Notes under the pieces: generated by a model
Database searches by the model: none
The model's input: the letters and a program-made list of their open reading frames with translations, nothing else
Told to the model about the DNA's origin: nothing
Source: Agarophyton chilense
Taxonomy: Eukaryota; Rhodophyta; Florideophyceae; Gracilariales; Gracilariaceae
Reading direction: 5' to 3'
Assembly: GCA_030374765.1 (NCBI GenBank)
Contig: JARGXX010000115.1
Span: 1,465,501 to 1,529,500, forward strand
DNA length: 64,000 bases
Part shown: positions 3,001-37,557 of the stretch, piece by piece
How positions within the stretch are numbered: position 1 is the stretch's first letter
Layout of the letters: every line of letters begins with the position of its first letter
Made by a program: the position numbers and the translations under genes

Positions 3001-3373
3001 CCTTTGACAGGCGAACCTTATTGAACTGCGTGATTTCGGAGACAATCGCTCGTTTGCAGTTAGCGTCTGGCCCTGGGGCGGAACCAGTTACGGAGATGGA
3101 AGGTGTGCTGTAGAATGCAACTTCGCCAAGCCCTGGATAAGTGGCCTTAATGTATCCATCGATACAGGAGGTCTCTAGGATTGGCTCAGCGCCATGGTTA
3201 GAACATACAAGGAACCACGTGCGGCCTTTGAATTGTCCTAACTGGAGGTAAAGTGGTACTATATCTTAAATATCCGTTGGTCTACGTGACGCATCGGTAA
3301 TCCTCGGGGTCTTTCTTGCCTGAACGAAATCTTGCTACCCCAGTGGGGGCAGCTTAAGATGGACCAAGTTGGG
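1..3373 (-). mobile_element. Ty3/gypsy chromovirus, family I copy 1, pol half (fossil)
   Basis: This is an old minus-strand gypsy element that runs off the left edge of the window. Reading down from 3373 it holds the protease edge, reverse transcriptase (about 2600-2100), RNase H (about 1650-1300) and integrase (about 1000-1). Recognisable stretches include FCVDYRKLNAVTKRDSYPIP of the RT and VLYTDASDVQVGCALLQ of RNase H. It is broken, with roughly ten or more breaks. It stops at 3373 exactly where element B begins, inside the protease active-site region. The matching gag half is not beyond B but at 22709-25674 in the opposite orientation, which points to an inversion. A second copy at 60085-64000 is uninterrupted across the same point. 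Its 3' LTR would lie left of the window. Confidence 0.9.
3369..3373. repeat. Target-site duplication TTGGG left of element B
   Basis: The five bases TTGGG abut the TG start of B's left LTR. They do not match the five bases right of B (AAGGC). They match the reverse complement of the five bases left of element C (CCCAA, 25670-25674). In family I copy 2, near 63017, the uninterrupted sequence runs straight through TTGGGACCAGCGCC, so this is the original insertion point. Confidence 0.9.
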
Positions 3374-4040
3374 TGTATTATTCTACTATGTCGGGGAATC
3401 CGATAGGATGATTTTTCGCGAAGTCGCGGTTGGAACTCATAAGTGAGTGATGTCATCAAACATGTGTTATGAAACGGAACACCGCGTAGAATGCCAGGAG
3501 GCAGGGTACATTAGTGGAACACGTGGCATCACGAGTGGAGTGGCTTGCAACGGCGCATGTAGTGGCGATCCACGTGGCAGGTTTTACTACCCTTTGTAGC
3601 TAGACGTCCATTAGGGACCATACCCATACCGTGGTTTGGCTAAGTAGCTGACCACTGGGTATTATTTATATATTAATTTGGGCACTCACCCTGGCACACA
3701 GTATATAGTGCACCAGAGGTGAGCGCCGACTCCAAGGAAAGGAGACAACATGGGCATCATGACTTTTCTGTTCCTCGCTTAGGATTCCTTAACCGGAGAT
3801 CCGGACGAGCTATAATAGATAGTGAGCCCCCAACCACTTCACGAGCCGTCTCGAACCTACGTTTCATCAACGTTTTACAGTTGCACTGCTCACCCTCGCT
3901 GGCGAGTAGTGGCCTTACACCCCACTTCCAGCTCGCTGGTGTTGTAGCTCTACCACCCCTTTTCCTTCGCCGCAAGCGACCCCTCGGCAGTCCAAACGCT
4001 GTCGCAGGTGTCTGCTCTCTCCGTAAGAGCGGATACTACA
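3374..4040 (+). repeat. 5' LTR of element B
   Basis: 667 bp, beginning TGTATTATTC and ending GCGGATACTACA. An AT-rich box (TTATTTATATATTA, about 3663-3676) and a TATATAG at 3702-3708 are candidate core-promoter signals, so transcripts probably start near 3730. It pairs with 13393-14059. The first half (U3) is clearly closer to that LTR than to the LTRs of element C. Confidence 0.95.
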
Positions 4041-4060
4041 AGTTGTCTCCCGACTTAGAA
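4041..4060 (+). other. Primer-binding site of element B
   Basis: Directly after the 5' LTR lies AGTTGTCTCCCGACTTAGAA. The same place in element C reads AGTGGTCTCCCGACTTAGAA, which contains TGG followed by a tRNA-like 3'-end complement. A tRNA ending ...TCGGGAGACCA would be the primer. I cannot name the amino acid. Confidence 0.6.
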
Positions 4061-4255
4061 CCACTGTGGTCAGCTGCACTGAACAATTCGCTCCTGGAAC
4101 GTGGAATCGATATCGATACTTGGAAGAAGTGGAATCACTACAGTTATTGTTTATCAAACCACCTCCGGCAATTGCGGAATTCATCGTGGTTGAACACGTG
4201 GTCGAGAAGTCGAAGACAACATCTGGTTCGCACCTGTACTCAAGTTTGGTCTAGG

Positions 4256-6408
4256 ATGCCGAAGACCCAAAGCCAGTCGAGTACTGGTCGCCCCGGTCCT
4301 GCGGAACCACCCCCGAAACCGAGGCTCGCCTCATCTGTTGAAGCCGGAGAGCGGCTGTATCGTCAAGCGATGTCGCGCTCACGCTCCGTGAATGATGAAC
4401 GAGATCTCTCGGATGTACCGGCCCCTGTGGCAGCGGCAGTCACGCCCACCACAGAAGCCGTAGTTGACCCTGAGGTCGTCGGACCTCATGAAGAGGATGA
4501 TTTGCGGAAGGAAGTGCATCGTCTCAAGTCTGAGTCAAGCGCTTCGCGTGTGCGCATGGTTGCGTTGGAATCGCAGATCGCTGCTCTTATCGCTGATGTC
4601 GAACAATTACGCTGTTCGCACCAAGCATTCGTTTGTCAAGACGATGGGAAGCAAGTCTCTGCATCAGTGAAAACACTACCTGAGGATTTGAACCATCTAC
4701 TGGTGAGGTACGGGAATACGCCCGATGCGCTACCCGGCTTAACCGTAGATGTAGAGGAAGTTCTCAATCGATTTAACCCTCGTTTAGAACGCCTGGAGGC
4801 GGCAGTTTATGCGCAAACTGCTGCTAAAACAGTCGTACTGGAAGAGGAAGGAGCTCCTTTGAAGGGAGCTCGTTCGAAGAAGTCGAAGTCACGACGTAAG
4901 AAGCGGAAGTCCGCACGTGATTCGAGTGATGAATCGTCAAATACGGAGGGCTTCAGATCCAGTACTGATGATTCTGATGATTCAGATACGTCAGATGACG
5001 ACGACAGTGATGATGGTCATCGAAGGTCCCGATTTCGGAAGAAAAACACGTCTTCGTGGTTGATGAGAAAAGAAGGCTCACATTACAGAGGATTGAAGGT
5101 GCTCCAGTGCACGAATCCGCTTTATCGGAAGGTCCTGAATTACAGGTACTACCGTCTGAAGGTGAAGAGCAAGAAGCGCTCAGGACGCGAAACCACGAAG
5201 GTGAAGGATCACATCAAACGATTGAAGATCGGCCTTAATGATTTAGTATTTGACGGGAAACCCCCTATTCTCGTTATCGAGTTTCTCACTCGATTCGTTG
5301 CCCAAGCAGACACTCTAGAGATGAGTGAACCACAGGCATTTCTGTCTTTCCCACACTTCCTGAAGGGTTTTGCTTTAGAGCAATATCGTTCCGTATGCGG
5401 ATCATTGACAGCCGACGAAGGCGGCGTTACCTCATGGCCAGAGGCGGGGCAGTATTTGCTGCGCAGTTACGCGACTTCAAACGCGATACGTCAGGCGATC
5501 CTGGACCTAAGGGATGTGACCCAAAAGCCTGAGGAGGGCGAAGCTGAGTACAGCTCAAGGCTTCACAAAGCTTCAGTCCGCTGTGAAAACCTCCACTCGA
5601 CGGAGGAAAAGATTACCTTATACATCGACGGGCTGGACCCGAGCATCAAGTCGTTGGTAGCTCGATATCGAGAGAAGCATGGAAGAGTCTCCTTTTTGGA
5701 GTTAGTTCAGTTTGCGAAAGCTGAAGGAGACGCGGCCAGAGTGCGTGGTAGCCCCCGTCGTTCATTGGCTTTTGGAACCTCAATGGGTAAGGAGAAGATC
5801 TCCGCCAGAGATAATCAGCGCAGCAAACTGCTACATCTATAATCTCCAGTTGACTCGCGAGACTCGTCGTTGGCACCCAAAGGGAGTGACTCGCATGAGG
5901 AGACGGTCCATTTAATGGAATATAGGGACTCTTCTGTACCTACAGTGGATCTCCCACACTCGGAGTCTCAGGACGAGGAAGCCCTAATGGCTATGGAGGG
6001 CCGTCGCCCTATGTACCGTCCCTACACGGTGCCACCACAAGGAGGTTTTAAGAAGGGGAAACCCGGATGGATGGATACTCGCACGGCATACCGTTCACAA
6101 CCTATGTTGACCAACCGTCGTGAAGGTATGATATGATATTCATGTTATGGAAAACACCATTTGAGTGCAGAATGCACGCTTCCTGCAAAGGATCTGAGTC
6201 GTATTATGACTAATTATGAAGCACTCTCAGAAGAGGAAAGGAGCCGCGTACCAGCGGGCATGTATTGGAAAGCCAGAATATGGTTTTCTCAGACACCGAT
6301 GCGCCGGACGGACAAGCCGGTTGCTCAGAATGCTGAAGTGTTACAACCCGGAACCCCGGTAGGAAGAGGCGCCATTGAGGCAAATAAGCCGGTGCAACCG
6401 GACAACTA
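4256..6408 (+). pseudogene. gag of element B (fossil)
   Basis: Structural gene of the chromovirus. I place the start at the ATG of MPKTQSQSSTGRPG, because the same start is conserved in element C and it lies beyond the LTR. The protein has a proline-rich N-terminus, a coiled-coil-like central segment, a basic Ser/Lys/Arg tract followed by an acidic Asp/Ser tract (near 4880-5010), a capsid-like domain (about 5200-5750) and a CCHC zinc knuckle (CYSCYGKHHLSAEC in copy C, matching place near 6140-6180 here). It is followed closely by the protease-coding region. It is broken by a small number of changes. Confidence 0.85.
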
Positions 6409-6450
6409 AGTGACGGAGCCCCTAGGGGGTCGGCACTAGTCGATCCCGTA

Positions 6451-7401
6451 GTGCTGACCAGGGAGAGCTCGCCTCCCAGCTCCCGCGCTTGGAAGCCCAA
6501 GATTCTCTTGAGGCCTCCCAAATTTCTGCCGTACGGAATCAATCCGCCGGACGGAAAGCGAGTACAGTTTGACTGTGAGTTACATCGTCCTTGGAGACGT
6601 TATACTTCTCCGTCAAAACGGGAAAGTTACCTCATGGTAGTGTTTAAAAGAAACTATAAGGTCTATGCCGACATCGGCTCTGACAGGAATCTGTTATCTC
6701 GTCGATTGACTATCCTGGACACAGATACTGGTCCGAAATTTATACGGGAATCGGAGCTCGCTCCTGCTGACTTAGAACGTATTCGATACGGTCCTTTACC
6801 GGACATCCGGGATGCCAACAAAAATGCTGTGAAGACACTGGGAACAGTTCGACTCGTTGTGCGTTTGAGACGCTTTGTAGTCCTAGACGATTTCATCGTT
6901 TGTAAGACGTTAGCTGCACCAGTGGTACTGGGATGTGATTATTGCGACAAGTTTGTCGAAGCCATTCGCCCGCGAAGAAAACTAGTCGAACTAGATGATG
7001 GATCAATGGTACCAATTGTTCGCAAGCCAATGCGTCGTTGCCCCGAAGCACCTCCACTTCCACCATCTATGGAATACGGGAAATCCCGAGGACGTGTCTC
7101 GCCGAGGATTCGAGTAGCGAAGAGTGCCATGCTGAAGGCGCAAACCCAAACTTGGGTTCAAGTAAGAACAGAACGACACGGACTCGTGGTAATTCAACCG
7201 AATACTCGGATGTACGAATCCCGTGGATTGCTTGTCGCTAACGGCATTTCTCAGGTTGATCCTGGTAGCCGCTTTTGGATACTGGAGAGTAACTTCACCG
7301 ATAACGATTATCATATACCGAAAAATCAGGTTGTTGCAACAGCTTTGCCTCATCCCACAGTGGTGGTCCTTACTCATATTTCTACCCCAGTAGTATTGTG
7401 A
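6451..7401 (+). pseudogene. Aspartic protease region of element B (fossil)
   Basis: An open stretch of about 316 codons between gag and RT. It contains a retropepsin-like segment (NLLSRRLTILDT at about residues 80-90), followed by a VRLVVRLRRFVVLDDFIVC strand and a VVLGCDYCDKFVEAI segment typical of retroviral-type proteases that end in a GxDxL-like motif. In the family this enzyme cuts the Gag-Pol polyprotein. It is one part of a fossil element, and the reading frame relation to pol is not examined further. Confidence 0.8.
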
Positions 7402-7455
7402 TTAACCCATGTCAGTGACACAGACGAAGAACTGCAAACTCCGTCTGGAGATCAA

Positions 7456-10128
7456 TTGCAAACGGCAAAGGACCCAGAGAGCCTGGTCGATGAGCTAGAC
7501 TTAGCACATGTGTCGGAACACTACAGAACGGAGATCAGATCTATGCTGAAGAAGTATACATCCATGTGGAGTGGAAAACTAGGAGAGATCTCCGCTACGG
7601 AACACCACATTGATTTGGTCCCAGGGTCACGACCCATCTCCCAACCACCCTACAAAGCGGGACCGCGAACTCGCCAAATCGAGGAGGAGAATGTCAGCAA
7701 AATGCTGGAAGAAGAAGTAATCGAAGCAGCTCAATCTGCTTGGGCCTCACCAGTGGTGCTGGTTCCAAAACCTGACGGTTCTTTACGATTCTGTATCGAT
7801 TATCGAAAACTGAGCGCAGTTAAAGTTCGAGATACATACCCGTTGCCTCGAATGGACGAATGTATTGACAACCTAGGAGAAGCGAACGTGTTCACCACGT
7901 TGGACGCCAACTCTGGCCATTGGCAGGTGCCTGTAGCGGAAGAAGACCAATACAAAACCGCATTTGCGTGTCACGCTGGTCTCTACCGTTTCAAAAGGAT
8001 GCCCTTTGGCTTAACGAATGCACCGGCTACTTTCCAACGTACTCTGGACATTTTGCTCTCAAGATACAAGTGGAAGACTTGTTTAGTCTATTTGGACGAT
8101 GTGATCATCTTTTCCCAGGATGTGGAAAGCCATTTACGGCATGTCGAGGAGATCCTCAAAGCACTACAGAGCGCAGGTATCACCTTGAAGTTCAAGAAAT
8201 GCGAATGGTTCGCTGGCACCGTCCGGTACTTAGGACACGTGATCAAACCGGGACAGCTTTCCATTCAAGAGGCACAAACAGCGGCTCTCCGCGAAGTACA
8301 ACCTCCGTCGACACAGAAGCAATTGCGTTCTTTTCTCGGCTTGTGCAACGTCTACCGACGATTCGTGCCGCGATACTCGCATATAGCGGCACCGCTCAAC
8401 GCAAAGCTGCGTAAAGGACAACCAGCGCAGCTGAAACAATTCAGACAAGCTGAAGTGGAAGCGTTCGACACGCTGAAGACAAAGATTATTACAGCCTCAG
8501 TCTTGGCGCTGCCCATCCCCAACCTGCCATACTCAGTGGATACCGACTCTAGCGAGTACCAAGTAGGGTGTGCCCTTTTTCAAACACACCCTGATGGTGA
8601 ACGCAAACCCATTGATTACTGGTCAAGAACGCTGAACGCAGCTGAGAAGAAGTATTCAGTTTCAGAAAATAAATGCCTTGCAGTCGTTTGGGATCTAACC
8701 ACATTGCGACCGTATCTCCAAGGAGAACTTTTTACCGTCAACACGGATCATTCGTCTCTACGATGGTTACTGTCCATTACAGACCCGTCTGGTCGTCTCA
8801 CACGATGGCGCTTACGCCTTTCTGAATTCGATTTCGAAGTGAAGTATAAGAAGGGATTGGCCAATGTCCAAGCTGACGCGCTATCGCAACTGAAAACACT
8901 GGGCGAAATCCAAGGCGAAATCGATGAAGAGATACCTTGCTTCTACATGGAGACCCATTCACCATCTTTTGAAGAGGAGGAACAAGAGACCCTTGATGAT
9001 TATTCGGATGCAGACCCGTTCCTTGCAATAGCAGACACTGACCCTTCAGTTCAACTCGAGCGCATCTCGTGCACTGAGCTCCTCAATGAGCAACACGCCG
9101 ATACGTTTTGCGCGTCGATACGCTCTCGTCTTAACGGGGGGGAGGAGCTCCCCTTTTCACTCGATTCACGAAGAATACTGTTAAGACATGTCGAAAAGCA
9201 TGATCAAATCCTGATTTCATACGTCTTGAAGAGTCAAGTACTCCATCTGGCACACTACAGCAGGCTGTCTGGTCATCCAGGAGGAACGGAGTTGTTCATG
9301 ACTCTAAGAAGAGATTTTTACTGGCCTACTTTGGCAATGGACTGTCATGCTACAGTGAGGTTGTGTACAACATGTGCGAAGAATCGGGTGAAGCTTTACA
9401 GGAAGCGGAAACCGATGAAGTTATTCCAGGCGAAAGCGCCTTTACAATACGTCAGTATCGACATCCTAGGGGAATTGATTCGCTCAAGGCGAGGTTATCG
9501 CTACCTATTGGTAATCACCGACCGCTTCTCGAAGCTAGTGCGGACTGTGCCGTTGAAGCGAATAACCGCAACCGTAATCGAACAGGCGTTTATAGAACAC
9601 TGGGTATTTATATATGGACCACCAGAAGTTCTGGTATCAGATAATGGGAAGCAATTCGCTGCGAAGTTTTTCCAGAATGTTTGCCACATTATGGGCATTC
9701 GAAACGTGTTTACCGCGACCTATAATCCGCGATGTAACGGTCAGGTGGAGCGTTTCAACCGCACGCTGATAGCAGCATTACGCCACTACATCGCGGACCA
9801 CCCGAAAGAATGGGACATGTTTACTGATACTCTGTGCTACGCGTACAATACGCAAGTGCATACCTCTACAAAGACGGCACCGTTCGATCTCGTGCTCTCA
9901 CGTAACCCTCCGGCTTTACCAGTTGCGCTCGACGACGAGACAGAATTGGACGCGCCGACCCCGGCTAAGTACCATCTGAAATGGAAGAATGACCTGAAGG
10001 CCAGAGCGAAAGAAGCCGCTAAAGATTTATCGAAAACGCAAGCTCGCTATAAGCGAAACTATGACGCCAGAAGGCGAAGAGTAAATCCGGCAATCCGAGT
10101 AGGAGGTCACGTCTTCATGCGAGTTTAA
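7456..10128 (+). pseudogene. Reverse transcriptase, RNase H and integrase of element B (fossil)
   Basis: A continuous 890-codon stretch. RT: FCIDYRKLSAVKVRDTYPLP, the template-contacting FTTLDANSG, FGLTNAPATFQ, and the catalytic YLDD near 8089-8100. RNase H follows (YSVDTDSSEYQVGCALFQ, near 8530-8580) with NTDHSSLRWLL. The integrase has the HHCC zinc domain (LSGHPGG through LCTTCAKN, about 9265-9380) and the DDE core (IDILGEL, SDNGKQF, then NGQVERFNRTL near 9740-9765). The layout is the standard Ty3/gypsy order. The stretch is long and well preserved compared with family I in this window. Confidence 0.95.
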
Positions 10129-10161
10129 AGACCGGACAAACAGGAAGAATCTCGTCATAAG

Positions 10162-11180
10162 TTGTTGCCGATAGCGGCTGGACCCTTCAAAGTGGTGGAC
10201 CTTGATGAAGACACAGTGGTCATCAAGACAGGTGAGGACGTTGAACGTGTATCGCGCGATCGCGTTGAAGTCGCGCCTGACCTGCAAGTGGAAGTCCAGG
10301 TATCTGGTAGAACGAAGGAGGCAAGTGCGACGGAACGTCAAGGCAAAAGCCCAAGTGACTCTGTGGAGAGTGAACCGCCACCAATGGCTCGAGCGGAGGA
10401 GAAAGCTCCCGATCTCCCACCGCCGGCGGTTGTGTACGCCAATAACGGACAGCTTCCGAAATATCGGGATATGCCCCGTGGCACGCACACACCCGTAAGT
10501 ACAGAAATGGAACCTGAAAGCAGGAAAGATGTTTTGGAATTTTGCCCCAAGGACTTGGAAACGAGTGCACGCGAAAACGCGCCTTTGCCGCTTCAGGCTG
10601 AACCGTCAAGTGAAGCGCCACTCGCTGTTCCGCCGATATCGGCTCCCATCCCTCGTGGGCAGGAAGAAGAAGAGGTATCGCCTCCTGTCGTGGTGCAAGC
10701 ACCATCATCCACCCAACAGCGGTCAGAATCGGATAAGCCGAAGGAAGTTCATCCACGAATGGAATTGAGAAGTAGCAAGAAATACGCTTCTATGGAACCT
10801 GGAAAACAGGATAGCTCTTTATCTGAGAAAGGTTCTCAAGGAATGAGTACACTGCCCATGCGGGCAGAACGACAGTTAGTCGACGAGCGAACGCTTAGCG
10901 ACGCGGAGACTGCTAATACAGAGACGCTTGGGTCAGCCCTAAGGCATTTCAAACCTGTTAACAGGAGTCTCGCGCCAACAGCGAAAGCATTGGGAAACGC
11001 CCAGGAATATGTTATAGATCGCATATGTGAACATGGCGAGCATGAAGATACTAGAGAATTACTGTATCGAGTCCGTTGGTCCGTTGGTACGGTTTTCCTC
11101 CGGAAGCGGATACGTGGGAACCTATAGCTCATATCCCCCGTTCGCAACTCGTGCGATATCATCGACGCATGCGATTACCA
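10162..11180 (+). pseudogene. C-terminal Pol linker and chromodomain of element B (fossil)
   Basis: After integrase comes a GPY-like segment (LPIAAGPFKVVDLDEDTVVI), then about 250 residues of acidic, proline-rich low-complexity linker, then a chromodomain starting at EYVIDRICEHGEHEDTREL (about 11008-11130). Element C has the same domain with the aromatic and acidic residues of the family (LYRFRWYGFPPEADTWEP). In chromoviruses this domain reads chromatin marks and steers integration. It ends shortly before a tandem-repeat spacer and the tail end of the antisense gene. Confidence 0.85.
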
Positions 11181-11254
11181 CTCCCCAGGGAGATCGACTC
11201 CTCGAGAGTCGGGCTCATGGGCACATCCCATTTCTAATTATGGGCTACCAAAGT

Positions 11255-11450
11255 AGTAAAAACTCGAAAAGCGAGAAGAATACAAGAAGTCATGTGGAAG
11301 AAAAGTGAGAACACGCAAGCACAGGACATTTACTGATTATCACCTAGGAAGAACTCGAGAAGCGAGAGAAGAAGGATTGAAGAACTCGATAAGCGAGAAG
11401 AGATGATTGAAGAACTCGAGAAGCGAGAAGAGATGAAGACTAGAAGATAA
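11255..11450. repeat. Tandem CTCGAGAAGCGAG-type repeat between convergent genes, element B
   Basis: Five or so imperfect units of about 27-30 bp carry ACTCGAGAAGCGAGAAG. Each unit has the small inverted repeat CTCG...CGAG and could fold into a short stem-loop. The array lies between the end of sense pol (about 11180) and the end of the antisense gene (11542), so the two genes are tail to tail across it. The same array is in element C at 28180-28335. Confidence 0.8.
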
Positions 11451-11541
11451 TAAGGTAACGTGAAAACACGAAGTCACCGGAGTTTTATTGGTATCAAGAT
11501 ATCACCGCAAGGGTGTTGACTAGGAGTCTTTTCTAGGATTA

Positions 11542-13368
11542 TCAAAGAGACGTGCGAGCACGCAGATTCTCGAGAAGCTGTGCGCGATCATCCTCAACTT
11601 GGTCAACGGGAAAGCCCGCATCTAAGAGGAACTGGCTCAGCGGATCCAAGCCTGGATCTTCGACCGGCACTGCACTCGGTTGTTGGGTAAACCCATGAGA
11701 GTACTCTTGAGCAACTCCCGTCGCGGCGGATTAATCGACGGAAGTCGATACGCCTGCCAGCTCTGGCTCGTCCTCGTAACCGAGTTCAGCCTCAGCTCCC
11801 GGCGCTTCCTCATACGGTTCCTCTCCGTTCTTGGATGGAGTAGCATCGTACACGTATTCAGTAAGCTGGTTCGGTGGCATGTCACGCGGGTTCTCCCGAA
11901 GAAAGCGAGCCTGCTCGGAGGTGATCAACTGGTGCGTCCAGGGGTCGTACCAAACGAAATCTCCAGCACTTGCTGTTCGTCCAGGAGAAGGGTCGTAGTG
12001 TCTTGCACGGGTTTCGCGAGCGGATTGATCAGCTGGCACTCCAGACCAGTCGACACCGTCGATTACACCCACAAGATGGAGGAAGTCGGCATGGTTCGCA
12101 CGGGATCCCAGGACAAGGGAAAGATCGAGTTCTCTCGCATACTTTCGCGCTGTGGGCGACATGTACCAAACTCGAAAGATATCATAAGCATCCCACAGGA
12201 GGGAGACGGCCATCTTGGCGATAAACTCGGTATAAACCACCGTCCAATATCCCGAGAACGGGTCGTTAACAAACGCGGACCCGATGTAGGAGATCGCCGG
12301 TGGGAGCTCCACAGGGCAACCAAGAGGACTCTTGATCGCCGCCCAATGCTCCGGAATACCGATGTAGCGCCCGAAGCGCGCGTTCCGCCGGATGCGGTCA
12401 ATCTCGATCATTTGATACGGCACCAAATTGCACAAACGTGATCGAGTACGACGTTCCCAACGGGGATAATCTCAATAGGGAATGTCAGGCTTTCGAAGGA
12501 AGTGGAACTCCGCACGGTGAAGAGGTTTCTGAAAGCAGAGAGCTGCATCACGCACACTGCGCACACCGCGCCAACCGCTAACATCGACTTCAACGAGTGT
12601 CTCGATATACGAGTAACCTTCACCGTCGGTACGGGCTTTCCAGGTATCTAGTTCCCAGTCCTGCGGGAGGAGAACCGTACTGGTGAATCGGTGAAGACGC
12701 TGGTAAATCAGCTTGGTGAACCGCGTACGGGCTTCGGACAAGGTTTCCGTTGAATATCGCGCAATCGCGTTGTCTGGCAAAGCAATATGGCTCGCCCAGT
12801 CGTCGCTATGAATCGCGTGTTCTGGAATACCGTCAGGGAAGTACCCACCGTGTACATACTGTTGTATCAACGCGTCATCGCGGATAGCAACTGGATCAAA
12901 CCAGGGCGCTTGAGCGAAAATTTCAACGTTGTCGAGAGGATCTCGTCCATAGAAATCCGCAGGGTGCGGGTAGCTCCGCTGAGCACGACGAGAAGTAGCT
13001 CGAATCACACCTGCAGAGGCGACGTAAGCCGCGTTCGGCATCGGAGCCACGGTTGGCTGAGGTAACGGTACCGACCGGAATCCGGTGTACGGGGTGGGGA
13101 ACGAACGGTATAGACCGAGTTGAGGAGTAGGCTGCGACGCAGAACCAGCAGTGTTTGACGGAGCCCCAGAAGGCACATCCTCAGAGGAGGGCTGAAACGG
13201 GTTGGACCCAGCGTTCGGATCCATCGCGAAAGATCGGGCTGAAGAGCGGTGAGGAGCAGAATGCTGTTCAGAACTGTAAGAGTTGGTCGGGCGGCGAGGA
13301 ATTCGTGATGACGACGAGTACCCGGAACACCGGTCCGACTGCGTATAAACGCTTCTTGCGTCCCCCAT
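11542..13368 (-). pseudogene. Antisense gene of element B (aORF, unknown function, fossil)
   Basis: A long coding region on the strand opposite to gag-pol, between the chromodomain and the 3' LTR. The N-terminal 300 codons (13368-12472) begin MGDARSVYTQSDRCSGY. A Ser/Pro-rich N-terminus is followed by a folded-looking part with YGRDPLDNVEIFAQAPWFDP, a basic ARTRFTKLIYQRLHRFTS segment, and DGEGYSYIETLVEVDVSGWR. Downstream pieces carry LVPYQMIEIDRIRRNARFGR and GDFVWYDPWTHQLITSEQAR, and end in an acidic Glu/Pro-rich tail. Element C has the same gene with very similar protein sequence. The start lies only 24 bp from the 3' LTR, so its promoter is probably inside that LTR. I see no signal peptide, membrane segment or known catalytic motif. 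It is broken by one or two changes. Confidence 0.75.
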
Positions 13369-13379
13369 GGTTCGCGCTT

Positions 13380-13392
13380 AACGAGGGGGGTA
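13380..13392 (+). other. Polypurine tract of element B
   Basis: AACGAGGGGGGTA immediately precedes the TG of the 3' LTR. A purine run at this place primes plus-strand DNA synthesis in LTR elements. Confidence 0.8.
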
Positions 13393-14059: not shown

Positions 14060-14064
14060 AAGGC
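14060..14064. repeat. Target-site duplication AAGGC right of element B
   Basis: AAGGC follows the TACTACA end of B's right LTR. Its partner is not at B's left but at the right of element C, where GCCTT (36003-36007) is the reverse complement. Confidence 0.9.
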
Positions 14065-14172
14065 TCATCGCATTAGGTAATTCGCAGAAATGTTACAAGG
14101 AAGGCCAATATAGAGCACCTTGGAAGAAATGCTCTAGCATTTGTCATAGATGGAAATGTCGACCATAGTTCT

Positions 14173-14857: not shown

Positions 14858-15126
14858 TGCTGCACACAAGGCAGTTTCTATATCAAATGATTTGTATGAT
14901 AATGACACTATGTCTGCCTTCGAATTAGCAAAGGATTTCACCAACCTCGTTGCTTCTGGCCCCCGGATTGTATTGTAGCTGATGATGTATTAGAAGCCCG
15001 TGAAAGGATGCAAGATCGCTGTAAGTTAGCTCTTATTCTGCGATCAATCGCAGTTCAAGAGTTACCTATTTCTGTTGGTGACCTTGTTGAGGTCTTCCAG
15101 AAGAAAGAGCCCGAAAAGAAGGGCTA

Positions 15127-17259: not shown

Positions 17260-17270
17260 AAGGGGAGGAA
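17259..17270 (+). other. Polypurine tract of copia element I
   Basis: AAAGGGGAGGAA directly precedes the TATTAA start of the 3' LTR, which fixes the LTR boundary. Confidence 0.8.
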
Positions 17271-25260: not shown

Positions 25261-25639
25261 ACGAACCACAGGGACCCCTGAAAGCTCACACTATGCCACG
25301 CCTCCGGACACTCCGATCAAATCCTCACAGGTTCACGCCATTGTAGATCCAACGGACGACCCCGTGGAAGAGTCCCATCATCAGGAAGAAACGGAAACCC
25401 CATCGGAAAACTTCTAGAGGGACGACTCGAGGCAAATCCTCCCTCTTTAAGCCCTTGCATCAACCAATTGGACGGTCATGAGCCAAAGAGCTCCTCACCT
25501 CCCAATACGAACCACCCACAATAGACTACTCAGGATGAACCACAATCGGAACACAATATCGAACCCTTTGGTATCCTCAGGAAAGAGAACTATAAATCTC
25601 GAGTAAACGTAGAACCTCGTTCCAACAACTCTCGAGTGA

Positions 25640-25674
25640 CCACAGCTGTATTGGACACAGGCGCTGGTCCCAAT
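25640..25674 (+). pseudogene. Start of protease, family I copy 1 (fossil, cut by element C)
   Basis: TTAVLDTGAGPN encodes the retropepsin active-site motif DTGA. Element C begins directly after it. The rest of the protease is at the 3373 end of the other half. Confidence 0.8.
25670..25674. repeat. Target-site duplication CCCAA left of element C
   Basis: CCCAA is the reverse complement of the TTGGG left of element B, and does not match GCCTT right of C. Confidence 0.9.
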
Positions 25675-26337
25675 GTAGTATCCGCTCTAACGGAAAGAGC
25701 AGACACCTGCGACAGCGTTCGGAATGCCGATGGGTTGCTTGCGGCGAAGTAAAAGAGGTGGTAGAGCTACAACACCAGCGAGCTGGAAGTGGGGTGTAAG
25801 GCCACTACTCGCCAGCGAAGGTGAACAGTTCAACAGTAAAACGTTGATGGAACGTAGGTACGAGACGGCTCGTGAAGTTGTTGGGGGCTGACTATCTATT
25901 ATAGCTCGTCCGGATCTCCGGTTAAGGAATCCTAAGCGAGGAACAGAAAAGTCATGATGCCCATGTTGTCTCCTTTCCTTGAAGTCGGCGCACCTCTGGT
26001 ACACTATATACTGTGTGCCAGGGTGGGTGCACAAATAATACGTAAATAATACCCAGTGGTCAGCCACTTAGCCAAACCACTGTATGGGTATGGTCCCTAA
26101 TAGACGTCTAGCTACAAAGGGTAGTAAAACCAGCCACGTGGATCGCCACTACATGCGCCGTTGCAAGCCACTCCACTCGTGATACCACGTGTCCCAACAC
26201 TGTACCCTGCCTCCTGGCATCCTACGCGGTGTGCCGTTTCATATCACAAGTTTGATGACATCACTCACTTATGAGTTCCGACCGCGACTGCGCGAAAAAC
26301 AAACCCATCGGATTCCCCGACATAGTAGAATACTACA
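25675..26337 (-). repeat. 3' LTR of element C (apparent recombinant)
   Basis: 663 bp, seen on the plus strand as TGTAGTATCC...GAATACTACA. The U3 part groups with C's other LTR. Just past a switch between 25977 and 26001 it shares AAGGAAAGG and GACTTTTCTG with the left LTR of B. Confidence 0.9.
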
Positions 26338-26361
26338 TACCCCCCTCGTTAAGCGCGAACC

Positions 26362-28079
26362 ATGGGGGACGCAAGAAGCGTTTACACGCAGTCGGACCGG
26401 TGTTCCGGGTACTCATCGTCATCACGAATTCCTCGCCGCACGACCAACTCTTATAGCTCTCAACAGCATTCTGTTCCTCACCGCTCTTCAGCTCGATCTC
26501 TCGCGACGGATCCGAACGCCGGGTCCAACCCGTTTCAGCCCTCCTCTGAGGATGTGCCCTCTGGGGCTCCGTCCAACACTGCTGGTTACGCGTCGCAGCT
26601 TACTGCTCAACTCGGTCCATACCGTTCGTTCCCCACACCGTACACCGGATTCCGGTCGGTACTGTTACTTCAGCCAACCCTGGCTCCAATGCTGAACGCG
26701 GCTTACGTCGCCTCTGCGGGTGTGATTAGAGCTCCTTCTCGTCGTGCTCAGCGGAGCTACCCGCACCCTACGGATTTCTATGGACGAGATCCTCTCGGCA
26801 ACGTTGAACTTTTCGCGCAAGCGGCCTGGTTTGATCCAGTTGCTATCCGCAATAACGCGTTGACACGGCAGTATGTACACGGTGGGTACTTCCCTGACGG
26901 TATTCCGGAACACACGATTTATAGCGACGACTGGGCGAGCCATATTGCTTTGCCAGACAACGCGAGTGCGCGATATTCAACGGAAACCTTTTCCGAAGCC
27001 CGTACGCGGTTCACCAAGCTGATTTACCAGCGTCTTCACCGATTCATCAGTACGGTTCTCCTCCCACAGGAGTGGGAACTAGATACCTGGAAAGCCCGTA
27101 CCGACGGTGAAGGTTACTCGTATATCGAGACACTCTTTGAAGTCGATGTTAGCGGGTGGCGCGGTGTGCGCAGTGTGCGTGATGCAGCTCTTTGCTTTCA
27201 GCAACCTCATCTCCGTGCGGAGTTCCGCTTCCTTGGAAAGCGTGACATTCCCTATTGGGATTATTCCCGCTGGGAACGTCGTACTCGATCACGTTTGGGC
27301 TATTTGGTGCCGTATCAAATGATCGAGATTGACCGCATCCGGCGGGACGCGCGCTTCGGGCGCTACATCGGTATTCCGGAGCATTGGGCGGCGATCGAGA
27401 GTCTTCGTGGTTACCCTGTGGAGCTCCCACCGGCGATCTCCTACATCGTGTTTGGTACATGTCGCCCACAGCGCGAAAGTGTGCGAGAGAACTCGACCTT
27501 TCCCTTGTCCTGGGATCCCGTGCGAACCATGCCGACTTCCTCCATCTTGTGGATTTGATCGACATTGTCGATTGGTCTGGAGTGCCAGCTGATCAATCTG
27601 CTCGCGGAACCCGTGCAAGACACTACGACCCTTCTCCTGGACCAACAGCAAGTCCTGGAGATTTCGTTTGGTACGACCCCTGGACGTGCCAGTTGATTAC
27701 CTCCGAGCAGGCTCGCTTTCTTCGGGAGAACCCACGTGACATGCCAGCGAACCAGCTTACTGGATACGTGTACGATGGTACTCCATCCGAGAACGGAGAA
27801 GAACCGTATGAGGAAGCGCCGGGAGCTGAGGCTGAACTCGGTTACGAGGACGACCCAGAGCTGGCAGGCGTAGCGACTTCCGTCGATCAATCCGCAGCTG
27901 CGGGAGTTGCCCAAGAGTACGTTCATGGGTTTACCCAACAACCGAGTGCAGTGCCGGTCGAAGATCCAGGCTTGGATCCGCTGAGGCAGTTCCTCTTAGA
28001 CGCGGGCTTTCCCGTGGACCAAGTTGAGGGTGATCGCCCACAACCTCTTGCGAACCTGCGTGCTCGCACGTTTTTTTGA
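26362..28079 (+). pseudogene. Antisense gene of element C (aORF, unknown function, fossil)
   Basis: The counterpart of the antisense gene of element B, on the plus strand, opposite to this element's gag-pol. It starts MGDARSVYTQSDRCSGY 24 bp inside the 3' LTR. A 398-codon stretch (26362-27558) covers the Ser/Pro-rich N-terminus and the folded-looking part (YIETLFEVDVSGWRGVRSVR, FRFLGKRDIPYWDYSRWERR, RDARFGRYIGIPEHWAAIES). A second stretch (27384-28079) has LDLSLVLGSRANHADFLHLV, GDFVWYDPWTCQLITSEQAR and an acidic C-terminus ending ANLRARTFF. It is broken about once. The near-identical protein in B shows that this is a regular part of the family. The function is unknown, and no membrane segment is visible. 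Confidence 0.8.
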
Positions 28080-28179
28080 TGATCCAAGAAAAGACTCCTA
28101 GTCAACACCCTTGCGGTGATATCTTGATATCAATAAAACTCCGGTGACTTCGTGTCTTCACGTTCCCTTCTTATCTTCT

Positions 28180-28335
28180 AGTCTTCATCTCTTCTCGCTT
28201 CTGGAGTTCTTAACTTCTTCTTCTCGCTTCTCGAGTTTGTCCTAGGTGAAAATCAGTAAATGTCCTTTGCTTGCGTGTCTTCACGTTTCTTGTTCATGAT
28301 TTCTTGTTTTCTTCTCGCCTTTCGAGTTTTTACTA
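28180..28335. repeat. Tandem CTTCTCGCTTCTCGAGTT-type repeat, element C
   Basis: The complement of the array in element B, with units carrying CTTCTCGCTTCTCGAG between the tail of the antisense gene and the tail of pol. The array is shorter and more degraded than in B. Confidence 0.75.
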
Positions 28336-28351
28336 CCTTTGTAGCTCATAC

Positions 28352-29794
28352 TTAGAAATGGGATGTGCCCATGAGCCCGACTATCGAGGAGTCGATCTCC
28401 CTAGGGAGTGGTATTCGCATGCGTCGATGATATCGCATGAGTTGCGAACGGGGGATATGAGCTATAGGTTCCCACGTATCCGCTTCCGGAGGAAAACCGT
28501 ACCAACGGAATCGATACAGTAATTCTCTAGTATCTTCATGCTCGCCATGTTCACATATGCGATCCATAACATATTCCTGGGCGTTTCCCAATGCTTTCGC
28601 TGTTGGCGCGAGACTCCTGTTAACAGGTTTGAAATGCCTTAGGGCTGACCCAAGCGTCTCTGTGTGAGCAGTCTCCGTGTCGCTAAGCGTTCGCTCGTCG
28701 ACGAACTGTCGATCTGCCCGCAGGGGCAGTGCACTCATTCTTTGAGAACCTTTCTCAGATAAAGGGCTATCTTGTTTTCCAGGTTCCATAGAAGCGTACT
28801 TCGTGCTACTTCTCAATTCCATTCGTGGATGAACTTTCTTCGGTTTATCCGATTCTGACCGCTGTTCGGTGGACGATGGTGCTTGCACCACGACAGGAGG
28901 CAATACCTCTTCTTCTTCCTGCCCACGAGGGATGGGAGCCGATATCAACGGAACAGCGAGTGGCGCTTCACCTGACGGTTCAGCTTGAAGCGGCAAAGGC
29001 GCGTTTTCGCGTGCACTCGTTTCCAAGTCCTTGGGGCCAAATTCCAAAACATCTTTTCTGCTTTCAGTTTCCATTTCTGTACTTACGGGTGTGCGCGTGC
29101 CACGGGCCATATCCCGATATTTCGGAAGCTGTCCGTGATTGGCGTACGCAACCGTCGGAGGTGGGAGATCAGGAGCTTTCTCTCCCGCTCGGGCCATTGG
29201 TGGCGGTTCACTCTCCCCACAGTCACTTGGGCTTTTGCCTTGACGTTCCGTCGCACTTGCCTTGATGACCACTGTGTCTTCATCAAGGTACATCACTTTG
29301 AAGGGTCCAGCCGCTATCGGCAATAACTTATGACGATATTCTTCCTGTTTGTCCGGTCTTTCAACTCGCACGAAGACGTGACCTCCTACTCGGATTGCCT
29401 GATTTCCTCTTCGCCTTCTGGCGTCATTGTCTCTCTTATAGTGAGCTTGCGTCTTTGATAACTCCTTAGCGGCTTCTTCCGCTCTGGCCTTCAGGTCATT
29501 CCTCCATTTCAGATGGTACTTAGCCGGGGTCGGCGCGTACAATTCTGTCTCGTCGTCGAGTGCAACCGGTAAAGCCGGAGGGTTACGTGAGAGCACGAGG
29601 TCGAACGGTGCCGTCTTTGTAGAGGTATGCACTTGCGTATTGTACGCGTAGCACAGAGTATCTGTAAACGTGTCCAATTCTTTCGGGTGGTCCGCGATGT
29701 AGTGTCGTAATGCTGCTATCAGCGTGCGGTTGAAACGCTCCTCCTGACCGTTACATTGCGGATGATAGGTCGTGGTAAACACGTTTCGAATGCT
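28352..29794 (-). pseudogene. C-terminal Pol: integrase end, linker and chromodomain, element C (fossil)
   Basis: Reading down from 29794: the end of integrase (NGQEERFNRTLIAALRHYIA), a GPF segment (LLPIAAGPFKVMYLDEDTVV), a long acidic proline-rich linker, then the chromodomain (about 28590-28430) with EYVMDRICEHGEHEDTREL and YGFPPEADTWEPIAHIP. The aromatic and acidic residues of the family are visible. This domain marks the element as a chromovirus. Confidence 0.9.
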
Positions 29795-32094
29795 CATAGT
29801 GCGGCAAACATTCTGAAAAAGCTTCGCAACGAATTGCTTCCCATTATCTGATAACAGAACTTCTGGTGGTCCGTATATAAATACCCAATGTTTGAGCGAA
29901 TCAATTCCCCGAGGATGTCGATAATGAGGAATTGTAAAGGCGCTCTCGCCTGGAATAACGTCATCGGTTTCCGCTTCCTGTAAAGCTTCACCCGATTCTT
30001 CGCACATGTTGTACACAACCTCACTGTAGTATGGCAGTCCATTGCCAAAGTAGGCCAGTAAAAATCTCTTTTTAGAGTCATGAACAACTTCGTTCCTCCT
30101 GGATGACCAGACAGCCTTCTGTAGTGTGCCAGATGGAGTACTCGACTTTTCAAGACGTGTGGAATCACGATTTGATCATGCTTTTCGACATGTCTTAACA
30201 GTATTCCTCGTGAATCGAGTGAAAAGGGGAGCTCCTCCCCCCCGTTAAGACGAGAGCGTATCGACGCGCAAAACGTATCGGCGTGTTGCTCATTGAGGAG
30301 CTCAGTGCACGAGATGCGCTCGAGTTGAACTGAAGGTTCAGTGTCTGCTATTGCAAGGAACGGGCCTGCATCCGAATAATCATCAAGGGTCTCTTGTTCC
30401 TCTTCTTCAAAAGATGGTGAATGGGTCTCCATGTAGAAGCAAGGTATCTCTTCATCGATTTCGCCTTGGGTTTCGCCCAGTGTTTTGAGTTGCGATAGCG
30501 CGTCAGCGTGGACATTGGCCAATCCCTTCTTATACTTCACTTCGAAGTAGAATTCAGAAAGTCGTAAGCGCCATCGTGTGAGACGACCAGACGGGTCTGT
30601 AATGGACAGTAACCATCGTAGACACGAATGATCCGTGTTGACGGTAAAACGTTCTCCTTGGAGATACGGTCGCAATGTGGTTAGAGCCCAAACGACTGCA
30701 AGGCATTCCTTTTCTGCAACTGAATACTTCTTCTCAGCTGCGTTCAGCGATCTTGACCAGTAACCAATCGGTTTGCGTTCACCATCAGGGTGTGTTTGAA
30801 AAAGGGCACACCCTACTTGGTACTCACTAGAGTCGGTATCCACTGAGTATGGCAGGTTGGGGATGGGCAGCGCCAAGACTGGGGTTGTAATAATCTTTGT
30901 CTTCAGCGTGTCGAACGCTTCCACTTCAGCTTGTCTGAATTGTTCCAGCTGCACTGGTTGTCCTTTACGCAGATTTGCGTTGAGCGGTGCCGCTATATGC
31001 GAGTATCGTGGCACGAATCGTCGGTAGACGTTGCACAAGCCGAGAAAAGAACGCAATTGCTTCTGTGTCGACGGAGGTTGTACTTCGCGGAGAGCCGCTG
31101 TTTGTGCCTCTTGAATGGAAAGCTGTCCCGGTTTGATCACGTGTCCTAGGTACCGGACGGTGCCAGCGAACCATTTGCATTTCTTGAACTTCAAGGTGAT
31201 ACCTGCGCTCTGTAGTGCTTTGAGGATCTCCTCGACATGCCGTAAATGGCTTTCCACATCCTGGGAAAAGATGATCACATCGTCCAAATAGACTAAACAA
31301 GTCTTAGACTTGTATCTTGAGAGCAAGATGTCCAGAGTACGTTGGAAAGTAGCCGGTGCATTCGTTAAGCCAAAGGGCATCCTTTTGAAACGGTAGAGAC
31401 CGGTGTGACACGCAAATGCGGTTTTGTCTTGGTCTTCTTCCGCTACAGGCACCCGCCAATAGCCAGAGTTGGCGTCCAACGTGGTGAACACGTTTGCTTC
31501 TCCTAGGTTGTCAATACATTCGTCCATTCGAGGCAACGGGTATGTATCTCGAACTGTAACTGCGCTCAGTTTTCGATAATCGATACAGAATCGTAAAGAA
31601 CCGTCAGGTTTTGGAACCAGCACCACTGGTGAGGCCCAAGCAGATTGAGCTGCTTCGATTACTCCTTCTTCCAGCATTTTGCTGACATTCTCCTCCACGA
31701 TTTGGCGAGTTCGCGGTCCCGCTCTGTAGGGTGGTTGGGAGATGGGTCGTGACCCTGGGACTAAATCAATGTGGTGTTCCGTAGCGGAGATCTCTCCTAG
31801 TTTTTCACTCCACATGGATGTATACTTCTTCAGCATAGACCTGATCTTCGTTCTGTAGTGTTTCGACACATGTGCTAAGTCTAGCTCATCTACCAGGCTC
31901 TCTGGATCCTTTGCCGTTTGCAATTGATCTCCAAACGAAGTTTGCAGTTCTTCGTCTGAGTCACGGACATGGGTTAATCCCAATACTTCTGCAGTAGAAA
32001 TATGAGTAGGGACCACCACTGTGTGATGAGGCAAAGCTGTTGCAACAACCTGATTCTTCGGTATCTGATAATCGTTATCGGTGAAGTTACTCAC
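29794..32094 (-). pseudogene. Reverse transcriptase, RNase H and integrase of element C (fossil)
   Basis: A 766-codon stretch closely similar to 7456-10128. RT has FCIDYRKLSAVTVRDTYPLP, FTTLDANSGYWRVPVA and YLDDVIIFS. RNase H has VDTDSSEYQVGCALF and NTDHSCLRWLL. The integrase zinc domain has RLSGHPGGTKLFMTLKRDF and LCTTCAKN. Layout and spacing follow the Ty3/gypsy plan. Confidence 0.95.
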
Positions 32095-32229
32095 TAGTAT
32101 TCAAAAGGGGCTACCAGGATCAACCTGAGCAATGCCGTTAGTGACTAGCAGTCCCCGGGATTCGTACATCCGAGTATTCGGTTGAACTACCACGAGTCCG
32201 TGTCGTTCGGTTCTTACTTGAACCCAAGT

Positions 32230-32928
32230 TTAGGTTTGCGCCTTCAGCATGGCATTCTTCGCTACTCGAATTTTCTGCGAGACACGTCCTCGGGATTTCC
32301 CGTATTCCATAGATGGTGGAAGTGGAGGTGCTTCGGGGCAACGACACATTGGCTTGCGAACAATTGGTACCATTGATCCATCATCTAGTTCGACTAGTTT
32401 TCTTCGCGGGCGAATGGCTTCGACAAACTTGTCGCAATAATCACATCCCAGTACCACTGGTGCAGCTAACGATTCACAGACGATGAAGTCGACTAGGACT
32501 ACAAAGCGTCCCAAACGCACCACGAGTCGAACTGTTCCCAGTGTCTTCACAGCATTTTTGTTGGCACCCCGGATGTCCGGTAAAGCACCGTATCGAATAC
32601 GTTCTAAGTCAGCAGGAGCGAACTCCGATTCCCGTATAAATTTCGGACCAGCACCTGTGTCCAGGATAGTCAATCGACGAGGTAACAGATTCCTATCAAA
32701 GCCGATGTCGGCATAGACCTTATAGTTTCTTTTAGACACTACCATGAGGTAACTTTCCCGTTTTGACGGACGAGTATAACGTCTCCAAGGACGATGTAAC
32801 TCACAGTCAAACTGTACTCGCTTTCCGTGTGGCGGATTGATTCCGTACGGCGGAAATTTGGGAGGCCTCAAGAGAATCTTGGGCTTCCAAGCGCGGGAGC
32901 TGGGAGGCGAGCTCTCCCTGGTCAGCAC
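32230..32928 (-). pseudogene. Aspartic protease region of element C (fossil)
   Basis: 232 codons containing LTILDTGAGPKFIRESEF, the DTGA active-site motif of retropepsins, followed by VVLGCDYCDKFVEAIRP. It lies between gag and RT, as in element B. Confidence 0.85.
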
Positions 32929-32969
32929 TACGAGATCGACTAGTGCCGACCCCCTAGGGGCTCCCTCAC

Positions 32970-35123
32970 TTAGTTTTCCGGTTGCACCGGCTTATTCGCC
33001 TCAACGTCGCCTCTTCCTACCGGGGTTCCGGGTTGTAACACTTCAGCATTCTGAGCAACCGGCTTGTCCGTCCGGCGCATCGGTGTCTGAGAAAACCATA
33101 TTCTGGCTTTCCAATACATGCCCGCTGGTACGCGGCTCCTTTCCTCTTCTGAGAGTGCTTCATAATTAGTCATGATACGACTCAGATCCTTTGCAGGAAG
33201 CGTGCATTCTGCACTCAAATGGTGTTTTCCATAACATGAATAACATATCAAACCATCACGACGGTTGGTCAACATAGGTTGTGAACGGTATGCCGTGCGA
33301 GTATCCACCCATCCGGGTTTCTCGTTCTTAGAACCTCCTTGTGGTGGCACCGTGTAAGGACGGTACATAGGGCGACGGCCCTCCATAGCCATTAGGGCTT
33401 CCTCGTCCTGAGACTCCCAGCGTGGGAGATCCCCTGTAGGTACAGAAGAGTCCGTATATTCCATTAAATGGACCGCCTCCTCATGCAAGTCACTATCTTT
33501 GGGTGCCAAGGACGAATCTCGCGAGTCAACTGGAGATTCCAGATGTAGCAGTTTGCTGCGCTGATTAACACTTGCGGAGACCTTCTCCTTACCCATTGAG
33601 GTTCCAAAAGCCATTGAACGACGGGCGCTACCACGCGCACTGGCCGCGTCTCCTTCAGCTTTCGCAAACTGAACTAACTACAAAAATGAGACTCTTCTAT
33701 GCTTCTCTCGATATCGAGCTACCAACGACTTGATGCTCGGGCCCAGCCCGTCGATGTACAAGGTAATCTTGTCCTCCGTCGAGTGGACGTTTGCACAGCG
33801 GACTGAAGCTTTGTTAAGCCTTGAGCTGTACTCAGCTTCGCCCTCCACAGGTTTCTGGGCCACATCCCTTAGGTCCAGGATCGCCTGACGTATCGCGTTT
33901 GAAGTCGCCTAACTGCACAGCAAATACTGCACTGCCTCTGGCCATGAGGTAACGCCGCCTTCGTCGGCTGTCAATGATCCGCATACGAAACGATATTGCT
34001 CTAAAGCAAAACCCTTCAGAAAGTGTGGTAAGGAGACAAATCGATGTGGTTCACTCATCTCTAGAGTGTCTGCTTCGGCAACGAATCGAGTGAGAAACTC
34101 GATAACGAGAATGGAGGTTTACCCATAAAATGTTAAATCATTAAGGCCGATCTTCAATCATTTGATCTGATCCTTCACCTTCGCGGTTTCGCGTCCTGAG
34201 CGCTTCTTGCTCTTCAACTTCAGACGGTAGTACCTGTAATTCAGAACCTTCCGATAAAGCGGATTCGTGCACGGGAGTACCTTCAATCCTCTGTAAGGTG
34301 AGCCTTTTTTTCTCATTAACCACGAAGACGTGTTTTTCTTCCGAAATCGGGACCTTCGATGACCATCATCACTGTCGTCGTCATCTGACGTATCTGAATC
34401 ATCAGAATCATCAGTACTGGATCTGAAGCCCTCCGTATTTGACGATTCATCACTCGAATCACGTGCGGACTTCCGCTTCTTACGTCGTGACTTCGACTTC
34501 TTCGAACGAACTTCTTTCAAAAAAGCTCCTTCCTCTTCCAGCACGACTGGTTTAGCAGCAGTCTGCGCATAAACTGCGGCCTCCAGGCGTTCTAAACGAG
34601 GGTTAACTCGAGTGAGGACTTTCTCTACATCCATGGTTAAGCCGGTTAGCGCATCGGGCGTGTTCCCGTACCTCTACCGTAGATGGTTCAAATCCTCACG
34701 TAGTGTTTTCACTGATGCAGAGACCTGCTTCCCATCGTCTTGAAAAACGAGTGCTTGATGCGCACTGCGTAATTGTTCGACATCAGCGACAAGAGCAGCG
34801 ACCTGCGATTCCACCGCAACCATGCGCACACGCGAAGCGCTTGACTCAGACTTGAGACGACGCACTTCCCTGCGCAAATCATCCTCTTCCTGAGGTCCGA
34901 CGACCTCAGGGTCAACTACGTCTTCTGTGGTGGGCGTGACTGCCACTGCCACAGGGGCCGGTACATCCGAGAGATCTCGTTCATCATTCACGGAGCGTGA
35001 GCGCGACATCGCTTGACGATACAGCCGCTCTCCGGCTTCAACAGATGAGGCGAGCCTCGGTTTCGGGGGTGGTCCCGCAGGACCGGGGCGACCAGTACTC
35101 GACTGGCTTCGGGTCTTCGGCAT
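32970..35123 (-). pseudogene. gag of element C (fossil)
   Basis: Starts at the ATG of MPKTRSQSSTGRPGPAGPPP (35123), matching element B. Parts in order: coiled-coil-like segment, basic and acidic low-complexity tracts, capsid-like domain (about 34150-33660), and a CCHC zinc knuckle CYSCYGKHHLSAEC (about 33250-33205). It is broken in several places. The zinc knuckle is the clearest of the two copies. Confidence 0.85.
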
Positions 35124-35318
35124 TCTAGACCCAACCTGAGTCCAAATGCGAACCAAATGGTGTCTTCGACTTCTCGACCACGTCTTCAACCACGATGAGT
35201 TCCGCAATTACCGGAGGTGGTTAGATAAACAATAACTGTAGTGATTCCACTTCTTCCAAGTATCGATATCGATTCCACGTTCCAGGAACGAATTGTTCAG
35301 TCCAGCTGACCACAGTGA

Positions 35319-35338
35319 TTCTAAGTCGGGAGACCACT
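35319..35338 (-). other. Primer-binding site of element C
   Basis: On the minus strand, AGTGGTCTCCCGACTTAGAA directly follows the 5' LTR. It contains TGGTCTCCCGA, a plausible complement to a tRNA 3' end ...TCGGGAGACCA. Confidence 0.65.
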
Positions 35339-36002
35339 TGTAGTAACCGCTCTAACGGAGAGAGCAGACACCTGCGACAGCGTTCGGACTGCCGATGGGT
35401 CGCTTGCGGCGAAGTAAAAGGGGTGGTAGAGCTACAACACCAGCGAGCTGGAAGTGGGGTGTAAGGCCACTACTCGCCAGCGATAGTGAACAGTGCAACT
35501 GTAAAACGTTGATGGAACGTAGGTACGGGACGGCTCGTGAAGTGGATGGGGGCTGACTATCTATTATAGCTCGTCCGGATCTCCGGTTAAGGAATCCTAA
35601 GCGAGGAACAGAATAGTCATGATGGCCATGTTGTCTCCTTTACTTGGAGTCGGCGCACCTCTGGTACACTATATACTGCGTGCCAGGATGAGTGCCCAAA
35701 TAATACGTAAATAATACCCAGTGGTCAGCCACTTAGCCAAACCACTGTATGAGTATGGTCCCTAATGGACTTACATATACAAAGGGTAGTAAAAGCAGCC
35801 ACGTGGATCGCCACTACATGCGCCGTTGCAAGCCACTCCACTCGTGATACCACGTGTCCCACTAAGACATTCGGCCTCTAGGCATCCTACGCGGTGTGCC
35901 GTTTCATATCACAAGTTTGATGACATCACTCACTTATGAGTTCCAACCGCTACTTCGCGAAAAAGCAACTTATCGGATTCCCCGACATAATAGAATACTA
36001 CA
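35339..36002 (-). repeat. 5' LTR of element C
   Basis: 664 bp, plus-strand ends TGTAGTAACC...AGAATACTACA. It pairs with 25675-26337. It carries the most private changes of the four family II LTRs. Confidence 0.9.
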
Positions 36003-36007
36003 GCCTT
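36003..36007. repeat. Target-site duplication GCCTT right of element C
   Basis: Reverse complement of AAGGC at 14060-14064. It is the partner for the family II element that entered copia I. Confidence 0.9.
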
Positions 36008-36009
36008 CA

Positions 36010-37552: not shown

Positions 37553-37557
37553 ATCTC

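Follow-up and report, generated by a model that had tools for sequence, protein, structure and literature searches.

The window analysed here is a 64-kb stretch of contig C115 in the 79.76 Mb, 135-contig assembly of the red alga Agarophyton chilense (contigs are designated C followed by a number), and coordinates given without a contig are positions in this window. It contains two long terminal repeat (LTR) retrotransposons, B (3374-14059, plus strand) and C (25674-36002, minus strand), which are inverted Ty3/gypsy copies of chromovirus type belonging to one family (family II) and form inverted arms of more than 10 kb at ~92-95% identity. The order of reverse transcriptase (RT), RNase H and integrase is that of a chromovirus, with a chromodomain following the integrase in C (Pfam Chromo, PF00385, in 28352-30175, E 3.4e-6); no chromodomain was found by Pfam in the four open reading frames (ORFs) of B that were scanned. 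The closest protein match to the 908-aa pol ORF of B is an unnamed Agarophyton chilense product, at 85% identity over 73%. Family II LTRs begin with TG, end with CA and are bordered by 5-bp target-site duplications (TSDs), which match in 10 of 18 complete elements. The LTR search of the assembly yielded the best 40 of 1297 candidates, and family II is therefore larger than the listed set; for comparison, 66.2% repeats are given for a PacBio assembly of Gracilaria chilensis (76.07 Mb, 138 contigs) in the available part of its description (PMC10388701). The parts of B and C are as follows, where columns are those of the LTR alignment and elements 1 and 2 are the putative ancestral elements discussed below:

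3374-4040, plus strand: 5' LTR of B (B5), 667 bp
4041-13392, plus strand: internal region of B, with gag, RT, RNase H and integrase (Pfam matches in the four scanned ORFs)
13393-14059, plus strand: 3' LTR of B (B3), chimeric, with columns 1-349 from element 1 and columns from 364 probably from element 2
25674-26337, minus strand: inner, 3' LTR of C (Cl), chimeric, with the U3 side from element 2 and the U5 side from element 1
26338-35338, minus strand: internal region of C, with RT, RNase H, integrase and chromodomain (Pfam matches)
35339-36002, minus strand: outer, 5' LTR of C (Cr)

Neither element is bordered by a matching pair of flanks. The outer flanks are TTGGG on the left and AAGGC on the right of B, and CCCAA on the left and GCCTT on the right of C; as a preceding sequence-only reading of the window had claimed, they pair only crosswise, in reverse complement, and both 5-mers are exact. 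The chance of two specified 5-mers matching is ~1 in 10^6. The locus thereby carries two marks of recombination between inverted transposable elements (TEs), namely homologous copies in opposite orientation at both breakpoints and TSDs exchanged between the copies:

3369-3373, plus strand: TTGGG, left TSD copy of ancestral element 1 (single copy at the paralogous site 63015-63019)
14060-14064, plus strand: AAGGC, displaced TSD copy of ancestral element 2
25669-25673, minus strand: CCCAA, displaced TSD copy of ancestral element 1
36003-36007, minus strand: GCCTT, right TSD copy of ancestral element 2

The same bases divide two further retrotransposons, a copy of a second Ty3/gypsy family (family I) and a copia element (copia I), into which B and C are set:

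1-3373, minus strand: family I copy 1, outer piece, with RT and RNase H ORFs on the minus strand
24687-25673, plus strand: family I copy 1, piece within the inverted segment (coding sense deduced from the outer piece, adjacency from paralogues)
60085-64000, minus strand: family I copy 2, intact at the position corresponding to the first target site (strand deduced from similarity to copy 1)
14060-17568, plus strand: copia I, pol-side part, LTR at ~17256-17568 (RVT_2 match; LTR comparison)
36003-37552, minus strand: copia I, gag-side part, LTR at ~37254-37552 (weak zinc knuckle; paralogue and LTR comparison)
17569-17573, plus strand: GAGAT, outer TSD of copia I
37553-37557, plus strand: ATCTC, outer TSD of copia I

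When the second piece of family I copy 1 is inverted, its two halves overlap on copy 2 at 63015-63019, where TTGGG occurs once, so that the split at a single base and the uninterrupted state of copy 2 are both as originally described. Each host half was searched separately in the assembly. For family I, with a query of 800 bp on either side, 39 other matches were retained for each half (best 40 of 565 and of 559 candidates), and halves were paired if they lay within 20 kb on one strand; an exact 5-bp overlap was found in 11 of the 11 copies having both halves among the matches listed. For copia I, adjacency was assessed on the 10 closest other matches to each half, from 47 and 45. In all eight copies with both halves at ≥90% identity the overlap was exactly 5 bp; in one more copy, of 73-74% identity, it was 1 bp, extrapolated from a truncated alignment. 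Since the halves adjoin with a 5-bp overlap in the paralogues, the half-sites in each host formed one continuous sequence before the insertions, and the 5 bp represent TSDs. The assignment to Ty1/copia follows from an RVT_2 match (PF07727, E 7.9e-8) in 15940-16248; the two LTRs of copia I are mutually inverted at 91% identity, and the predicted outer GAGAT duplications are present at 17569 and, as ATCTC, at 37553. The split of copia I at 14060 and 36003 likewise stands. Its proposed placement between integrase and gag stands in part, as the pol side carries RVT_2 and the gag side a weak zinc knuckle (36285-36695, E 0.02, Pfam), and no integrase match was obtained in the scanned copia I ORFs.

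These observations bear directly on the possibility that B and C are independent insertions whose flanks match by chance, with no inversion having occurred. Elements of this family without matching TSDs are not rare (6 of 16 other complete copies, see below); however, two exact crosswise 5-mers together with two host elements that are split at these very bases and contiguous elsewhere make such a coincidence extremely improbable.

The position of the exchange was approached through the four LTRs of B and C, which were aligned in element sense and scored for states against 51 other LTRs. The alignment comprised 55 of 60 LTR matches, the five partial ones being excluded, and adjacent columns were merged into informative events. 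In columns 1-349 all nine informative events group B5 with B3 against Cl with Cr, among them 105A, common to B5 and B3, and a deletion of 348-349, common to Cl and Cr, each present in none of the 51 other LTRs. Beyond column 349 no site supports this grouping. Instead, B5 and Cl have in common 364G, found in none of the other LTRs, and 392T, found in one of 51. Because the pairing of the LTRs changes between columns 349 and 364, the crossover is placed near the corresponding intervals, which bound an inverted segment of ~12.2 kb:

13741-13756, no strand: left crossover interval, LTR columns 349-364 (arithmetic from the alignment)
25977-25992, no strand: right crossover interval, LTR columns 349-364 (arithmetic from the alignment)

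Both copies are chimeric with a common switch point, the U5 side of which is marked by two rare sites with one conflict, and an exchange within this LTR interval is likely. Within-element events numbered 9 of 48 before column 350 and 0 of 34 after it (Fisher p 0.009). In four-taxon approximately unbiased (AU) tests both alternative pairings were rejected for columns 1-349 (0.0038 and 0.0035), and for columns 350-667 B5+Cl was the best pairing, with B5+B3 at 0.0076. Furthermore, of 1467 between-element LTR pairs, 7, including B5-Cl, share at least two U5 states that occur in no more than one further LTR. Four of the other six have a separate explanation (two through an inverted duplication on C68, one through near-identical copies on C88, and the C24/C93 pair, whose 8-bp flanks are identical), and B5-C109 and C71-C68 share rare U5 states with no separate explanation.

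Several results nevertheless weigh against this interpretation, most of them concerning the U5 side. Support there is thin, with two sites for B5+Cl and none for B3+Cr, and site 585 conflicts by grouping B3 with Cl. A single-breakpoint shuffle test gave p 0.038. For columns 350-667 the pairing B5+Cr remained at AU 0.277, the Kishino-Hasegawa (KH) and Shimodaira-Hasegawa (SH) tests rejected none of the pairings, and the tree without crossover was not rejected on U5 alone (KH 0.15, SH 0.17). Nor do the distances over columns 364-667 favour the crossed pairs, the U5 values being 0.055 for B5-Cl, 0.051 for B3-Cr, 0.051 for Cl-Cr and 0.055 for B5-Cr. Under a stricter cut, admitting only states found in no other LTR, B5-Cl retains one U5 state, at least one is shared by 22 of the 1467 between-element pairs, and B5 shares two with the unrelated C109 LTR. 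Among ten elements with matched TSDs, rare states are shared in both LTR halves in six, in one half in three and in none in one; since these controls also differ between halves, the absence of shared states from one half has no diagnostic value. For the same reason LTR mosaicism was dropped as a stand-alone test for other elements. Finally, no allele of ancestral order was found in the assembly itself when 18000-21500 was used as query: this segment matched itself at 100%, and the other matches were ≤79% identical, among 40 of 148 candidates scored. No ages were assigned from LTR pairs; the LTR halves diverge unequally under either pairing.

The observations comprise exchanged TSDs, two split hosts, paralogous sites without interruption and a change of LTR pairing, and it is very likely that an exchange between B and C produced an inversion. 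Strong support for the inversion comes from the TSDs and host elements, and the exact LTR interval rests on few U5 sites. In the proposed sequence of events, element 1 would have inserted into the family I gypsy copy with the TSD TTGGG, and element 2, of the same chromovirus-type family, in opposite orientation into the copia copy with the TSD GCCTT. A later reciprocal exchange between the inner 3' LTRs, presumably by homologous recombination and within ~15 bp near columns 349-364, would then have inverted the ~12.2 kb lying between the elements. Its products would be two chimeric elements with swapped TSDs, the U5 half of B3 deriving from element 2, and two split host elements. The LTR-LTR crossover and the ~12.2-kb inversion put forward in the sequence-only reading are thus both supported, the former by the pairing switch, with its two U5 sites, and the latter by the crosswise TSDs, split hosts and intact paralogous sites.

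Inverted arms of this length and identity are a known risk in assembly, and a segment flipped by the assembler between 10-kb inverted repeats, in an organism that retains the ancestral order, would likewise swap the TSDs and yield mosaic LTRs. However, if the switch lies at columns 349-364, the exact runs that B3 and Cl share are no longer than 4 bp inside this interval and 27 bp next to it, whereas eight exact runs of 107-192 bp lie elsewhere between B and C. As the long runs lie elsewhere, a switch by the assembler in the crossover interval appears improbable, and we regard an assembly artefact as an unlikely source of the pattern. The crossover could also lie at another place in the arms, in which case a separate gene conversion would have produced the LTR switch. 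Clustered changes resembling small conversion patches are indeed seen in the LTRs of C at columns 123-141 and 226-232 (~35771-35880 and 26197-26200), and rare states are also common to unrelated LTRs; yet this history requires an extra event, and an internal crossover would place B5 and B3 in different elements, contradicting the U3 state that these two share and that is absent from the 51 other LTRs. It is accordingly given little credence. A third route is inversion at integration, in which two cDNAs joined two staggered cuts with crossed ends. Such an event would generate the crosswise TSDs in a single step and fits the U3 pairing of B5 with B3 and of Cl with Cr, but it predicts one pairing over the entire LTR, whereas U5 contains no B5+B3 site and two rare states common to B5 and Cl. 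Although this signal is modest, swapped integration is very improbable. Exchange between two established copies is retained as the favoured account.

A census of TSDs across family II places the flank mismatch in context. Pairing was done by eye, on the 40 LTR matches closest to B5 and their surrounding regions, a non-random sample. LTRs without a found partner or with broken ends were excluded (C10, C34:485503, C114, C115:4454, C115:41171-51700, C68:3656839, C68:4655990 and C88:387283), as were the short fragments C115:40954, C34:496077 and C4:1439739 and ten solo LTRs. The flanks of the solo LTRs match in six cases, agree at 4 of 5 bases in one and mismatch in three. Of 18 complete elements with both flanks, 10 have matching TSDs and 8, including B and C, do not; with B and C set aside, 6 of 16 are mismatched. 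Mismatch in itself is hence not special in this genome, and it is the crosswise match together with the split hosts that carries the case. Among the six, C1 and C98 have shared rare states in each half of the LTR, an argument against exchange in them; C88:2757152 and C96 have them in one half only, and C68:4683390 and C88:370129 in neither. C71 was considered as the reciprocal partner of C1 (left flank GTTTC; one exact match) and rejected, its left flank being GGGAC and not ATAGT; the C71 element is likewise TSD-discordant and stands outside the census count. A partial search (one pattern search, for one element) found no second reciprocal pair, and no other crosswise pair was apparent by eye among the LTR flanks gathered. 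It is conceivable, albeit doubtful, that this chromovirus family repeatedly swaps flanks between copies, so that its copies form a base-resolution record of non-allelic crossovers; under that tentative reading B and C would be the sole complete reciprocal pair so far.

Other arrangements of family II copies were noted in the assembly. An inverted duplication of an element on C68 (4655990-4666608, minus strand, and 4683390-4693991, plus strand; loci L064, L070, L050 and L015) is 97% identical over the 5' stretch compared and 99% identical over the 3' stretch; it runs beyond the 3' LTR and ends close to where the 5' LTR begins. On C88, two head-to-head 5' LTRs (380091-380757, minus strand, and 387283-387949, plus strand; loci L013 and L026) lie 6.5 kb apart with mismatched left flanks; they are 99.5% identical, and 1.5 kb of internal sequence is 99% identical (five other copies, ~92-97%). 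Identical 8-bp flanks border a full element at C24:33674-44367, where the contig is 62 kb long, and a solo LTR at C93:498335-498999 (L010, L017 and L061); the two resemble the full and the solo state of a single insertion. The right flank TTTCCATC is common to four 3' LTRs (C115:51034, C115:4454, C114:4720 and C34:485503; L024, L025, L068 and L029), one of them near a contig end, which suggests duplicated segments. Within the window, GC skew forms strong blocks, at -0.50 in 42000-44000 and then +0.24 to +0.43 in 52000-60000.

Discordant TSDs on copies of LTR retrotransposons or human endogenous retroviruses (HERVs) are read as a sign of inter-element recombination. The flank mismatch is read in the same manner here; unlike in those cases, the window contains the two recombination products together, so that the partner copy is known. 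One study reportedly deals, judging by its title, with chromosomal inversions that tandem TE insertions mediate (PMC12368964). A closer parallel is inversion 2z3 of Drosophila buzzatii, for which the available sections of the report describe oppositely oriented Galileo copies at the breakpoints, exchanged TSDs and chimerism of both copies, with a single target copy on non-inverted chromosomes and ectopic recombination as the inferred cause (PMC2775673). B and C are similarly opposite, TSD-swapped and chimeric. The systems differ in that Galileo is a P-superfamily element with 7-bp TSDs, whereas B and C are Ty3/gypsy elements with 5-bp TSDs, and in that the uninterrupted sites come from non-inverted chromosomes for Galileo and from paralogues here. 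The novelty seen in the sequence-only reading was overrated, as exchanged TSDs with chimeric copies are a published diagnostic of the mechanism (PMC2775673). Because the Galileo signature is already published, the mechanism is not new, and B and C represent an unusually legible further instance of it. No swapped-TSD case appears in the available portions of PMC3026039, PMC12502185 and PMC10085805, and a limited look at literature joining recombination with LTR or retrotransposon terms returned no red-algal case by title. The locus provides a self-contained red-algal example, since a single assembly shows both insertion sites, the two recombination products and the probable place of the crossover. 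In elements of this kind, dating by LTR divergence may compare the wrong LTR pairs, and mismatched TSDs should not be called rearrangements unless a crosswise partner is known.

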